Shown: in pieces, positions 6,234 to 32,968 of the stretch | Layout: each line of letters starts with the position of its first letter | Numbering within the stretch: the first letter of the stretch is position 1 | NCBI RefSeq assembly: GCF_000218625.1 | Contig: NC_015672.1 | Span: forward strand, 1,116,001-1,180,000 | Reading direction: 5' to 3' | Origin: Flexistipes sinusarabici DSM 4947 | GTDB lineage: Bacteria; Chrysiogenota; Deferribacteres; Deferribacterales; Flexistipitaceae | DNA: 64,000 bases | Made by a program: the position numbers and the translations under genes | The notes under the pieces: model-generated | What the model saw: the letters and a program-made list of their open reading frames with translations, nothing else | Database searches by the model: none | What the model was told of the DNA's origin: nothing

Positions 6234-7777
6234 GTTAGCCCTGAGAAACTAGATAACTATTTGATAATACTTGAGTTAACCAAGGAAATATGCTAAAGTA
6301 ATCCCACAGAAAAGTAAAGGAATAAGCAAAAAACCCGGGGGATTATATGCGTCCTAAGAAGCAAGATTCGACGACACAAGAGCTTTTAGAACCACTGCTT
6401 GTTAACATTATAGATATGAAACATCCATTAATACAATTAGCAGATAAAATAGACTGGGAATATTTTGAGAAAGAATTTGGCAGTCTTTATCACCGTAACG
6501 ATGGTCGCCCAGGAATTCCAATGCGTATGATGGTTGGGTTTCATTATTTGAAATACACGTACAATTTGAGTGATGAAGACGTGGTGCATGGCTGGAAAGA
6601 AAACCCTTACTGGCAGTACTTCACTGGAGAAAAGGTATTCCAGACAAAGGTGCCGATAAATCCAACCAGCATGACAAGATTTCGGAATCGTTTAAAAGAA
6701 GAAGATTTGTTGAAGTTTTTAGAGGAGACAATTAACACTGCTTTTCGTAGTGGTTATCTTAATAAGAATGACGTAAAGAAAGTAGCTGCAGATACGACGG
6801 TGCAGGAAAAGAACATAACGTTTCCAACGGACATAAAACTTTTTTATACAATGATCAAATATCTTGTGAAATTTTCAAAGAAGCATGAGATAAGGTTAAA
6901 GGAGACACATGAATATTCCGGCAAGAAGCTATTGATGAAATATAGTGGCTATGTTCATGCGAAACAGTACAAGAGAGCGGGTAAGGCAGTAAAAAAGATG
7001 AAGACAAAGATGGGCAAATTATATCGTTCTATAGAAAGGGTTTTACCTGAGGAATTGAGGAATTCGGATGAGTTTCAACAGCTAAAGTTATTTTACGAGA
7101 GTTTGTGGAATCGGAGTAAAAAGAGCAAGAACAAACTTTACAGTCTTCACAGTCCAGAGGTTGAGTGCATTAGCAAGGGCAAGAGCCATAAGAGGTATGA
7201 GTTTGGTAACAAAGTAGGTTTTGTTGGTACATTGAAGAAGAATTTTATACTGAGTTGCAAATCATTTCACGGCAATCCTTATGACGGTCATACATTAGAA
7301 GAGAATTTATGTGAAGCAAAAACCCTTTTGGGTAGTAACGGTACAATAGATACGATATTGGTAGATTTGGGTTACAGGAAGCACAATTATAGAGGGGATG
7401 CAAAAGTCCATGTAGTTCCACGCAGTATGAAGAAATTCAAAGTTAATTTTAAGAGGTTATTGAAAAGACGAAGTTGTGTTGAGGCGACGATAGGTCATAC
7501 TAAGCGAGATAACCGGATGGACAGAAATTATCTGAAAGGCAAAGAGGGAGATAAAGCTAATGCGATTTTGGCAGCAAGTGGACATAATTTAAGGCTGATA
7601 CTGGCCTTTCTTTTATTTTTTCTCAAAAAATTTATGGATAATATTGCAAAAAAATTAGCAAATTTTGCAAACGAAGTGTTTCTGGATAAAAAGTATGCCA
7701 AAATATATGTATAGTTTACATTTAATAAACAAAAATATTGGCAAATTTTAAGAAAATATACCTTTTTCAGGGTTAAC
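6234..7777 (+). mobile_element. IS5-like insertion sequence, copy 1
   Basis: A 1544-bp element. Its left end GTTAGCCCTGAGAAA and right end (reverse complement GTTAACCCTGAAAAA) form terminal inverted repeats. It is flanked by 7-bp direct repeats TAAGTTA at 6227-6233 and 7778-7784. Joining the flanks restores GTGC-TAAGTTA-AAAGC, which occurs intact at 6078 in the neighbouring repeat. An inverted copy of equal length lies at 17946-19489. One transposase gene fills the element. Confidence 0.9.
6347..7714 (+). CDS. IS5-family transposase (copy 1)
   Basis: A 455-residue DDE transposase. The N-terminal domain resembles the InsH/DUF772 type (GRPGIPMRMMVGFHYLKYTY). Probable catalytic acidic residues lie in AADTTVQEKNI, ILVDLGYRKHN and CVEATIGHTKRDNRMDRNYL, consistent with the DDE fold of IS4/IS5-type enzymes. 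It is the only gene of the element, starts about 113 bases from its left end, and has an intact frame, so it may still be active. The protein is identical in sequence to the one at 18009-19376, which points to recent transposition or gene conversion. The family assignment rests on domain style, not a search. Confidence 0.9.
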   Translation: MRPKKQDSTTQELLEPLLVNIIDMKHPLIQLADKIDWEYFEKEFGSLYHRNDGRPGIPMRMMVGFHYLKYTYNLSDEDVVHGWKENPYWQYFTGEKVFQTKVPINPTSMTRFRNRLKEEDLLKFLEETINTAFRSGYLNKNDVKKVAADTTVQEKNITFPTDIKLFYTMIKYLVKFSKKHEIRLKETHEYSGKKLLMKYSGYVHAKQYKRAGKAVKKMKTKMGKLYRSIERVLPEELRNSDEFQQLKLFYESLWNRSKKSKNKLYSLHSPEVECISKGKSHKRYEFGNKVGFVGTLKKNFILSCKSFHGNPYDGHTLEENLCEAKTLLGSNGTIDTILVDLGYRKHNYRGDAKVHVVPRSMKKFKVNFKRLLKRRSCVEATIGHTKRDNRMDRNYLKGKEGDKANAILAASGHNLRLILAFLLFFLKKFMDNIAKKLANFANEVFLDKKYAKIYV

Positions 7778-8101
7778 TAAGTTAAAAGCAAAAGCAGATG
7801 TAAAGGTAGAGGAAGATATAGAGAGAGAGTGAGGTAGTGAGGTGTGATGTGATGTGTAGTATGGGTAGTATGGGTCATGGGTTAAACGTTCAAGGTTCAA
7901 GGTGCAAGGTGCAAGGTTCCAATCAACCAATCAACCAATATACAAATACACCAATATGCTTTTTTGGTTTTATTACTCTCTTGACTGCAACTTGGTATCA
8001 GACATCGATCTCTTCATTCGTGAAAATCCCTTTCTCAATCTAATGTATTGTCAAATTATATGAATGTGTAATTTTTGCGAAGGCTCCAACTGTTTTTTTT
8101 G
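7715..8101. other. Intergenic repeat-rich region before lexA
   Basis: After the IS right end (7777) come the second copy of the 64-bp duplication (7778-7841), a 9-bp repeat around TAGTATGGG, heptamers CAAGGTT, CAAGGTG, CAAGGTG and CAAGGTT (7891-7918), and an 8-bp repeat of CCAATCAA. A fragment of a MITE-like element follows at 7957-7998. No credible gene is seen; short open frames here are simply repeats read through. Confidence 0.7.
7957..7998. repeat. Fragment of MITE-like repeat (end GCAACTTGGTAT)
   Basis: This stretch matches the right-hand 43 bases of the element at 16479-16661 with only a few differences (shared cores TTATTACT and CTTGACTGCAA, ending TTGGTAT). The left half is absent here. 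Confidence 0.7.
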
Positions 8102-8131
8102 TTGACAAAGGCATGGATTGCTCTCTATAAT
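8102..8131 (+). promoter_or_regulatory. lexA promoter
   Basis: TTGACA at 8102-8107 and TATAAT at 8126-8131 are exact sigma-70 consensus hexamers separated by 18 bases. They lie 41 bases ahead of the lexA start codon. Confidence 0.8.
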
Positions 8132-8136
8132 TAGGA

Positions 8137-8148
8137 GAACAAATGTTA
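8137..8148 (+). promoter_or_regulatory. Probable LexA operator (SOS box)
   Basis: GAACAAATGTTA is one base from the GAAC-N4-GTTC box recognised by Gram-positive-type LexA. It starts six bases after the -10 box, over the expected transcription start. This position suits autorepression of the lexA-dinB operon. Inferred from sequence alone. Confidence 0.6.
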
Positions 8149-8171: not shown

Positions 8172-8762
8172 ATGGGATTAACCGGCAGGCAAAAGGAATT
8201 TTTTCTGTTTATAAAAGATTTTCTGGATGAATACGGATATCCTCCGTCGGTGAGAGATATTGCAAAAGGTATGGGAGTTGCTTCCATATCAAGTGTGAAG
8301 AAGATGCTGGACAGACTGGTCGAAGCCGGCGTTATAAAAAAAGATTCATCCAAAGCCAGAGGGATTGAGCTTATATATCACCAGGGAGTACCTTTGCTGG
8401 GGAGGATTAAGGCCGGCACTCCCGTTTTTTCTGAAGAAAATATCGAAGGTTATGTTGACCTTGCTGAGAAATTTAAAAATACGGAAAACCTGTTCTGCCT
8501 CAAAGTTGAGGGCGACAGTATGATAGATAAAGGGATATTTGAAGGTGATACAGCTGTAATAAAAAAACAGCCGGATATAAGTGAAGGGGAGACCGGGGCC
8601 TTTCGTATAAATGATGAGGTTACTTTGAAAACATTTGCCAGAAAAAAAGGATGCGTTTTCCTTATTCCGGCTAATAAAAGATATAAAAGTATCAGGGTCA
8701 CCCCCGCAGATTCTTTTGAAGTTATAGGAAAACTTAAACTTGTTTTAAAAGACTTTAACTAA
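8172..8762 (+). CDS. lexA: LexA repressor
   Basis: SOS-response repressor with self-cleavage activity, 196 residues, close to the usual length. Residues 1-65 form the winged helix (PPSVRDIAKGMGVASISSVKKML). After a linker, RIKAGTPV contains the Ala-Gly cleavage site. The S24 peptidase domain shows the catalytic Ser in GDSMIDKGI and the catalytic Lys in EVTLKTFAR. GAGG at 8162 supports the ATG at 8172. It heads an operon with a small protein and DNA polymerase IV, and its own promoter carries a likely LexA box, so the unit should be damage-inducible. A heptamer repeat array separates it from the next gene. Confidence 0.95.
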   Translation: MGLTGRQKEFFLFIKDFLDEYGYPPSVRDIAKGMGVASISSVKKMLDRLVEAGVIKKDSSKARGIELIYHQGVPLLGRIKAGTPVFSEENIEGYVDLAEKFKNTENLFCLKVEGDSMIDKGIFEGDTAVIKKQPDISEGETGAFRINDEVTLKTFARKKGCVFLIPANKRYKSIRVTPADSFEVIGKLKLVLKDFN

Positions 8763-8774
8763 ATTTATGAGTTT

Positions 8775-8823
8775 AAACCTTGAACATTGAACGTTGAACG
8801 TTGAACCTTGAACATTGAACGTT
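8775..8823. repeat. GAACNTT heptamer array
   Basis: Six perfect-register heptamers run from 8782 to 8823: GAACATT, GAACGTT, GAACGTT, GAACCTT, GAACATT, GAACGTT. A degenerate unit precedes them. The array lies inside the lexA-dinB transcription unit, just before the ribosome-binding site of the small gene. Confidence 0.88.
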
Positions 8824-8842
8824 ACAGAGGAGCTGTTTTATT

Positions 8843-9091
8843 ATGATTTTTACATCGGATGTGGAAATCAGCAGAGCAGGAGTGGTTTTCAAATATGGAA
8901 ATCCGCTGCCCGTATGGATTGAAAGCAATGGGGAGAAAATTTCTGTAAAAGAAATTTTCTACAGCTGGACTGAAAGAAAAGGACATTATCTTATTTATAA
9001 ATACACATTTACAGACGGTTTTGATGCTTATGAGATAGCCCTTAACTCTCTTTCTATGAAGTGGTTTTTAATAGCCAGGGAGGAATTGTGA
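8843..9091 (+). CDS. Small conserved-context protein between lexA and dinB
   Basis: An 82-residue protein that I do not recognise with certainty. It is beta-rich and basic/aromatic, with GNPLPVWIESNGEKISVKEI near the start, SWTERKGHYLIYKYTF in the middle and WFLIAREEL at the end. The pattern of a short beta barrel ending in a tryptophan strand vaguely recalls the DUF6504-type proteins found beside Y-family polymerase genes in other phyla, but the match is weak. It has a good ribosome-binding site (CAGAGGAG ahead of the ATG), and its stop overlaps the dinB start (GTGA). Placement in a LexA-controlled operon suggests an accessory role in lesion bypass; this is inference. Confidence 0.7.
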   Translation: MIFTSDVEISRAGVVFKYGNPLPVWIESNGEKISVKEIFYSWTERKGHYLIYKYTFTDGFDAYEIALNSLSMKWFLIAREEL

Positions 9092-10293
9092 TTCTTTGTG
9101 TGGATATGGATGCTTTTTTTGCTTCGGTTGAAAAAGCGAGTAAACCCCACCTGAAAGATAAGCCTGTGGCGGTAATAGGTGCAAAGGAACGGACAGTTGT
9201 AACAACGGCCTGTTATATTGCAAGAAAATATGGTGTAAGAACAGGGATGAGTAAATATGAAGCTGAGAAAATATGCCCTTTTATCAATATGGTAACGGGC
9301 AATAACAGAAAATACACATATATTTCCTCCCAAATCATGGATTTTTTCAAAACCTTGACCGATAAAGTGGAAATATATTCTGTAGATGAAGCTTTTTTGC
9401 AGATTCCGGGTGAAAAAGCAGAGGATGTTATTTCGGATATTAAAAATTATGTGAAAAAGCGTTTCGGTATCACCTGTTCCGTAGGTGCAGGCAAAAGTAA
9501 GCTTGTGGCGAAAATGGCAAGCGGGATAAATAAGCCTGACGGATTCCTTGTGATAAGTGATGGTGAGACTATTGATTTTCTGGATTCATTTAAGCTTGAA
9601 GATATCTGGGGAATCGGCAAGAAACTTTCGGAGCGTTTTTACAATATGGGTGTTTTCAATACTGCCGATATGAGGAAGCTCGGCAGGGATAAACTCTGTA
9701 ACATATTCGGCAAAAACGGCTATTATTACCATATGATGGCATGCGGAGATGATCGGGAAGGGGTTCGGGTTGAAGATGAAGCTGTGAAATCGATTGGTCA
9801 CAGCATGACTTTTCCCGAAGATGTAAGGGATACCAGGATGTTTAATGCGTATCTCCTTCAGCTTTGTGAAATGGTTTCCGGAAGAGCCAGACATCATAAC
9901 GTTTCGGGAAAGACGATTACCCTCAGTATAAGGTTTCCCGATATGAGCACCCTCAGTAAAAGACATACCATTAACTATTTAACCTGTGCCACTCATCATA
10001 TTTATGATGTAAGCAGATATATAGCAACAATGTTTCCTGAAAATTTTCTCGAAAATGGAATCAGGCTTATAGGCGTTACTCTGTCAAATTTGATACATGA
10101 TACCCAGGAGTTGTGTTCTGTTTTCGATGGAAGGGATATGGGAAAAGTATATAAAGCAATGGATGCTATAAATGAAAAATACGGCGGTTTTACCGTTTCT
10201 TTTGCTTCCATCCTGAATTGCCGGCGAAAAGGTGCGAGGACGATCTCCCCTGCATGGAAGCCAAAAGGTTTAAGAAAAGTCGACGTTTTGTGA
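9088..10293 (+). CDS. dinB: DNA polymerase IV (Y-family, error-prone)
   Basis: Translesion DNA polymerase. The N-terminus CVDMDAFFASVEKA carries the first metal-binding Asp and the second catalytic segment is YSVDEAFL, together the palm active site. The thumb has helix-hairpin-helix residues around DIWGIGKKLSERF, and the little finger domain follows from about residue 235. Length of about 400 residues is slightly longer than E. coli DinB. I choose the GTG at 9088 because GGGAGGA sits directly upstream and it overlaps the preceding stop; starting further upstream would add residues without family support. It is last in the lexA operon. The C-terminus lacks an obvious clamp-binding peptide that I can name confidently. 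Confidence 0.93.
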   Translation: MILCVDMDAFFASVEKASKPHLKDKPVAVIGAKERTVVTTACYIARKYGVRTGMSKYEAEKICPFINMVTGNNRKYTYISSQIMDFFKTLTDKVEIYSVDEAFLQIPGEKAEDVISDIKNYVKKRFGITCSVGAGKSKLVAKMASGINKPDGFLVISDGETIDFLDSFKLEDIWGIGKKLSERFYNMGVFNTADMRKLGRDKLCNIFGKNGYYYHMMACGDDREGVRVEDEAVKSIGHSMTFPEDVRDTRMFNAYLLQLCEMVSGRARHHNVSGKTITLSIRFPDMSTLSKRHTINYLTCATHHIYDVSRYIATMFPENFLENGIRLIGVTLSNLIHDTQELCSVFDGRDMGKVYKAMDAINEKYGGFTVSFASILNCRRKGARTISPAWKPKGLRKVDVL

Positions 10294-32844: not shown

Positions 32845-32968
32845 ATTGAAACAGTTGATAAAATTGAGGTGGAGAGGTAGTGAAGTAGAGAGATAGTGAG
32901 GCAGGGAGGGAATTCAACATTGAATGTTGAACATTGAACTTTGAACTTGTCTCACACGCATCACGCAT
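32845..32968. repeat. Heptamer arrays, purine-rich then TTGAACN type
   Basis: Purine-rich 7-bp units (AGGTAGT, GAAGTAG, AGAGATA, GTGAGGC) give way to TTCAACA, TTGAATG, TTGAACA, TTGAACT, TTGAACT, TGTCTCA, CACGCAT and CACGCAT at 32913-32968, all in one register. This is the same composite style as 1543-1640. Confidence 0.82.

Follow-up and report, generated by a model that had tools for sequence, protein, structure and literature searches.

Flexistipes sinusarabici DSM 4947 encodes a small protein of 82 residues between lexA and a gene for a Y-family DNA polymerase, and the locus raises the question of what this protein is and what it contributes to an operon of this kind. The gene was analysed within a stretch of 64,000 nucleotides (NC_015672.1, positions 1,116,001 to 1,180,000; hereafter the window, with positions counted from its first base), which belongs to a genome consisting of a single contig of 2,526,590 bases. 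The features of the locus are as follows.

8102–8131, + strand: promoter-like TTGACA-18-TATAAT, 5' of lexA (12 of 12 consensus matches)
8137–8148, + strand: SOS-box-like palindrome GAACAAATGTTA with one mismatch to GAACN4GTTC, just 3' of the -10 hexamer
8172–8762, + strand: lexA (TIGR00498, 174 bits; cut-off 111)
8773–8823, + strand: array of TTGAACN heptamers separating lexA from imuB-C (TTGAACNTTGAAC is matched 14 times with at most one mismatch, all arrays together, versus 0.68 expected)
8843–9091, + strand: standalone imuB-C, 82 residues, DUF6504-related and predicted all-beta (homology, synteny, a chain of profile comparisons and an AlphaFold2 model)
9088–10293, + strand: dinB, Y-family polymerase of 401 residues with a C-terminal tail (start GTG at 9088; Pfam)
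10105–10125, + strand: QELCSVF, a candidate for a clamp-binding motif of the polymerase, picked out by eye, its form not being kept in relatives
10150–10212, + strand: RecA-NT-like motif of the polymerase tail, matching the beginning of DUF4113 (PF13438) at E 0.0066, short of the curated cut-off

Organization of the lexA–imuB-C–dinB locus

The reading frame starts with ATG and encodes 82 residues on the + strand, exactly as given in a preliminary description made from the sequence alone, and an AGGAG is present upstream of the start at 8828–8832. The gene begins 80 bases after the end of lexA (8762), and its TGA stop codon (9089–9091) shares bases with the GTG start codon of dinB at 9088, forming a GTGA overlap; both this overlap and the position behind lexA had been described correctly. 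As the gene is present in 24 of the 45 genomes of the order Deferribacterales (profile search, own genome counted), it is a real, conserved gene and not a chance reading frame.

The promoter-like sequence upstream of lexA is one of nine such sites in the region, which is no excess over the shuffle mean of 9.6. Similarly, the window contains 11 matches to the SOS-like box within one mismatch where 19.6 are expected, again no excess, and the weight of the box therefore rests on its conservation. Among 22 lexA upstream regions of the order (own region counted), which come from related species and are not independent, the exact GAACN4GTTC was found in 12 and a box within one mismatch in 20, compared with means of 0 and 1.04 and largest values of 0 and 4, respectively, in 100 shuffles. 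The upstream region of recA, as fetched, contained no SOS-like box within one mismatch.

Further arrays of TTGAACN heptamers are found at 1536–1555, 7881–7907 and 32920–32946; in a genome of the same genus (G001) the gap between lexA and imuB-C is longer and the array only short. A 455-residue ORF (6347–7714), transposase-like by eye, ends about 460 bases 5' of lexA. Its 3' part contains a repeat (7624–7671) with a possible inverted counterpart at 18052–18099, which may represent a second copy.

Assignment to the ImuB-C family

The window protein was not matched by any Pfam or NCBIfam model at E ≤ 10. An identity as an ImuA or RecA-like protein, which the preliminary description had already doubted, was dropped, no such match being found in either database. 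PF20114 (DUF6504; curated cut-off 24.2 bits), to which a distant likeness had been proposed, gave no match at E ≤ 10 to the window protein or its genome, but the proposal holds for the family as a whole: PF20114 was detected at E ≤ 1 in 31 of 50 family members scanned singly (best E 2.8e-6), and hhalign aligned the profile of these 50 sequences to 19 DUF6504 proteins with a probability of 98.4 (E 1e-14). A 16-sequence profile, comprising 15 sequences of the order and one from a genome of another phylum (G052), gave 95.8 (E 7e-9). The 19 proteins are those PF20114 loci whose ORF was also found by the family profile at E ≤ 1; of 27 PF20114 places, seven were family members themselves and one (L114) was missed by the family profile.

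DUF6504 was in turn compared to the C-termini of ImuB proteins, which were gathered first beside ImuA-like matches and then by a C-terminal profile in two classes. The six starting loci (two beside an ImuA match over the cut-off, four beside weaker matches) together with the best 30 from one class (34 of 114 genomes matched) and the best 25 from the other (72 of 77 genomes matched) amounted to 61 loci, of which 36 C-termini were kept after removal of near-identical ones. The comparison of DUF6504 with these gave a probability of 93.4 (E 2.6e-7), versus at most 0.4 for 12 column shuffles and 11.6 (E 0.0026) for the reversed alignment. When the family profile was compared directly with the same 36 C-termini, the result was 5.9 (E 0.0064), which is below the usual thresholds, the best of 12 shuffles reaching 1.7 (E 0.029). 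An earlier ImuB profile of six sequences had given 59.9 (E 9e-5) when compared to DUF6504 and 1.0 (E 0.054) against the family. Judged from these profiles, the link between the family and ImuB is good via DUF6504 and weak on direct comparison. Searches of other collections gave scattered matches, with 18 PHROGs families matched by one member each (best E 0.014) and eight NCBIfam families likewise matched by one of the 50 members each. We consider it almost certain that the 82-residue protein is a member of the ImuB-C family. Standalone ImuB-C is the small beta module that elsewhere is fused to the C-terminus of ImuB.

Proteins of this kind have been described previously. According to Aravind (2013), the ImuB-C domain was named from the Geobacter protein GSU0042 of about 80 residues together with ImuB C-termini, and standalone ImuB-C is found mostly with dinB and often with lexA (PMC3765255). 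Operons of the type lexA-imuB-C-polY were later reported in Deferribacteres by Timinskas & Venclovas (2019), and a 2026 survey lists PolYs associated with ImuB-C and includes published models for representatives of the association types (PMC12926913). The name DUF6504 was not found in the literature searched. The idea of a new protein family was dropped, as standalone ImuB-C is already present in the 2013 and 2019 papers; of the initial suggestion of a new polymerase IV accessory factor, the link to a Y-family polymerase thus stands and the novelty does not.

Predicted structure

An AlphaFold2 model based on eight Deferribacterota sequences (mean pLDDT 90.6, pTM 0.79) predicts eight strands and no helix. 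Among solved structures, the best relative found by sequence had an E of 0.24. Foldseek returned no confident match (best E 0.14 in the PDB and 0.077 among viral models), and the best VIA-align hit (Z 5.3 over 55 residues) did not represent a confident fold relative either. The best structural matches appear to be common beta arrangements, which would not support an SH3 fold or a novel one. In the 2026 survey, modelling gave an ImuB-C barrel unlike SH3 barrels, including those of UmuD' and YqjX, and without close PDB relatives (PMC12926913). The predicted all-beta model agrees with this published beta-barrel and would by itself be no proof of a new fold.

Occurrence and genomic context of ImuB-C

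A single-sequence search already detects ImuB-C across the order. Of the 24 Deferribacterales genomes carrying the gene, 22 show the arrangement lexA-imuB-C-dinB, and imuB-C and the polymerase gene are joined by a four-base NTGA stop/start overlap in 16 of these 22 loci (hand count). When 384 genomes were searched with the 16-sequence profile, 69 were matched at E ≤ 0.01, comprising the 24 of the order and 45 others. The latter contained 47 places with a match, of which the three weakest (G269, G218 and G202; E 5e-4 to 9e-3) were left out and 44 kept; at one of the omitted places (L106), a lexA-like gene lies on the other strand. Of two contig scans, the first confirmed none and the second gave seven Deferribacterota loci.

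A Y-family polymerase is encoded on the same strand within the fetched stretch at 41 of the 44 non-Deferribacterota places (the farthest about 3.4 kb away), and a LexA/UmuD-like gene at 20 of the 44. The polymerase misses are two places where the contig ends shortly after imuB-C (L075 and L094) and L082, where about 3.8 kb on each side contained no Y-family polymerase; in the L082 genome, which is 84% complete, no polymerase was matched at E ≤ 1e-20 either. Rather than lying mostly away from lexA or Y-family polymerases, the homologues bear out the polymerase linkage on which the preliminary description had relied.

Two further contexts were observed. In G052 (L103, 3958–4236 and downstream), the ImuB-C relative is encoded directly 5' of a LexA/UmuD-like gene and a Y-family polymerase gene, the latter resembling umuC by eye. 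On a plasmid of Geobacter anodireducens, a hypothetical protein of 84 residues is encoded between lexA and a polymerase; the small protein matched the family profile at 2.9e-27, and the polymerase is unannotated, with matches split over two ORFs. A plasmid search using a G100 member as query gave two weak places, in Geobacter and Pelobacter.

The polymerase partner and its tail

The dinB product matched IMS, IMS_HHH and IMS_C over their Pfam cut-offs as well as the NCBIfam model NF002677 'DNA polymerase IV' (264.8 bits, cut-off 256), the sole such model over cut-off. The label 'polymerase IV' is thereby defensible, the partner being the long form with a C-terminal tail. The residues D6, D100 and E101, which we take to be the equivalents of the catalytic acids of E. 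coli DinB, are invariant in 16 orthologues, and the polymerase is apparently active.

PF13438 (DUF4113) was detected in 15 of the 16 orthologues at E ≤ 0.1 (best 4.8e-4), and the start of DUF4113 has been connected with the RecA-NT-like motif by Timinskas and Venclovas. By eye, the tail segment KVYKAMDAINEKYG resembles KAIDLALGKIERDFG of the RecA from the same genome. An ImuA-ImuB-DnaE2 mutasome, taken as imuA together with a second, DnaE2-type DnaE, was not found in this genome: one DnaE match (DNA_pol3_alpha) was obtained and no second one of the DnaE2 type, and the sole genome-wide match to the ImuA model at E ≤ 1e-10 (46 bits, cut-off 150) is located in recA.

Co-occurrence of ImuB-C and the polymerase tail

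Each of the 24 Deferribacterales genomes with imuB-C encodes a tailed polymerase of full length, the match extending at least to position 391 of 400. In the genus g11, 8 of 10 genomes lack ImuB-C and encode, next to LexA, a polymerase of about 350 residues that has no tail. In seven of them (L224, L228–L233; genomes G014, G030, G032, G034, G041, G020 and G044) lexA adjoins dinB, and in the eighth (G038) the two are adjacent by coordinates, the polymerase match crossing one stop codon. The short DinB perhaps represents a polymerase replacement inside the same operon, and the joint absence of ImuB-C and tail may be one evolutionary event. The two genomes of the family f8 have lexA and dinB in divergent orientation, with imuB-C about 20 or 127 kb away; a short distance 5' of their start, the relocated copies carry an SOS-like palindrome, GAACATATGTTT with one mismatch or AAACATTTGTTT with two.

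Three g14 genomes encode a tailed polymerase and have neither ImuB-C nor a LexA match; because they keep the tailed polymerase without it, ImuB-C is not strictly required. The absence of a LexA match (E ≤ 1e-10) extends to four g14 genomes (G025, G027, G036 and G040). Among the other genomes of the order lacking imuB-C, the polymerase match reaches position 363 in G023 and is partial in G043. Eight of the 21 genomes of the order without imuB-C, several of them incomplete and including G002 from the same genus as F. sinusarabici, gave no polymerase match at E ≤ 1e-20.

Outside the order, a tail was scored as reached at model position 366 of 400 or beyond. Using a model made from 16 polymerases of the order, all of which are from imuB-C loci and thereby favour the result, a tail-reaching polymerase was found in 39 of 42 genomes with imuB-C versus 12 of 38 without (hand count), the latter genomes being taken in handle order and not at random. 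Counted by polymerase, the tail was reached in 38 of 41 near imuB-C, 13 of 22 others in the same genomes, and 12 of 28 in genomes lacking the gene. The tail is not specific to ImuB-C, as seen from the 12 of 38 genomes without it and the 13 of 22 polymerases not beside it.

Proposed role of ImuB-C and alternative explanations

The locus as a whole is best explained by a standalone ImuB-C that is probably an SOS-induced subunit of an assembly of the tailed polymerase and RecA; from the sequence data we infer induction of the operon, a physical complex and an effect on bypass. DNA damage would cause RecA to trigger LexA cleavage, which would induce the lexA-imuB-C-dinB operon, and the overlapping stop and start codons would couple the synthesis of ImuB-C to that of the tailed, apparently active polymerase. 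The RecA-NT-like motif of the polymerase tail would then dock on RecA, and ImuB-C would join the polymerase–RecA assembly as a third subunit, licensing lesion bypass without DnaE2 or ImuA. The third-subunit step is modelled on the mycobacterial mutasome, where ImuB-C supports ImuA' binding; in that system, the binding of ImuA' depends critically on the RecA-NT motif of ImuB, and ImuB-C appears to stabilise the contact (PMC11791113). For this particular mechanism, with SOS-induced ImuB-C as the third subunit of a polymerase–RecA complex, we see the case as evenly balanced.

More tentatively, ImuB-C could be the dedicated partner of the RecA-NT-bearing tail and serve as the RecA-docking subunit of a DnaE2-free, three-part mutasome, a reading that is somewhat doubtful and draws on the absence of ImuB-C where the polymerase of the same operon is tail-less (g11) and on the separate SOS-like boxes of the relocated copies (f8). 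If it were true, ImuB-C would have a function independent of DnaE2 binding, and the Deferribacterota would provide a simple DnaE2-free system with natural absences for studying the role of ImuB-C.

Alternatively, ImuB-C could be a DNA-damage-binding module that guides the polymerase to lesions by way of DNA and not of RecA. A damage-binding role was proposed in the 2013 work on the grounds that ImuB-C is associated with repair systems of differing mechanism and has conserved basic residues (PMC3765255). In the 50 family sequences, two tryptophans are kept in at least 90%, one of which is the C-terminal W74 of the window protein, and basic positions reach majority-level conservation only. With 41 of 44 places near a Y-family polymerase, no confident fold match and hence no nucleic-acid-binding fold to cite, and a region that in mycobacterial ImuB stabilises a protein contact (PMC11791113), a damage-binding function seems unlikely.

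The coupling of a small-subunit gene to a Y-family polymerase gene would also fit an action in the manner of UmuD or YolD, with the small subunit binding directly to the polymerase to gate its activity and contact with RecA being secondary. The G052 locus, with imuB-C directly 5' of a LexA/UmuD-like gene and a polymerase labelled umuC-like by eye, points in this direction, but the coexistence of ImuB-C with a UmuD-like gene at the same locus implies that it is not a simple substitute. Neither a UmuD nor a YolD match was obtained in Pfam or NCBIfam, and the 2026 survey reports a barrel for ImuB-C other than the SH3 barrel of UmuD'/YqjX (PMC12926913), which makes such a mode of action rather improbable; the fold search gave no confident match to any structure. 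Modulation of LexA or of SOS shut-off instead of the polymerase is very unlikely: imuB-C does follow lexA in 22 of the 24 Deferribacterales genomes that have it, but elsewhere a LexA/UmuD-like gene is found at 20 of 44 places versus a polymerase at 41, and the genus g11 keeps lexA without imuB-C.

Comparison with known systems

Standalone ImuB-C is of a kind already described, also in this phylum, and is a poorly understood polymerase partner. What is contributed here is the joint absence of ImuB-C and tail in one genus and the two relocated copies with SOS-like boxes. Also of note are the conserved box upstream of lexA and the tie between DUF6504 and ImuB-C, by which an anonymous ORF becomes a named subunit and the Pfam family is connected explicitly to the ImuB-C literature.

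At the profile level DUF6504 (PF20114) is like the family, and by eye a basic insertion is additionally present in many DUF6504 proteins. GSU0042, the standalone ImuB-C of Geobacter, likewise has about 80 residues and is encoded between lexA and a tailed Y-family polymerase, a likeness drawn from its description, the sequence compared being the G. anodireducens plasmid copy; the operon of Geobacter sulfurreducens is co-transcribed and damage-induced according to a 2003 study, as related in a citing paper. The C-terminal domain of canonical ImuB, from the ImuA-ImuB-DnaE2 mutasome, is linked to the family through DUF6504 and is a beta-barrel in published models. In contrast to the canonical mutasome, ImuB-C is here a separate protein, the polymerase is apparently active, and a single DnaE match was obtained in the genome, with nothing above the ImuA cut-off. 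The ImuY-ImuB-C-DnaE2 cassette of Deinococcus also includes a standalone ImuB-C of 80 residues in a lexA operon, but differs in that its Y-family protein is predicted to be inactive and DnaE2 is the polymerase (PMC8072749).
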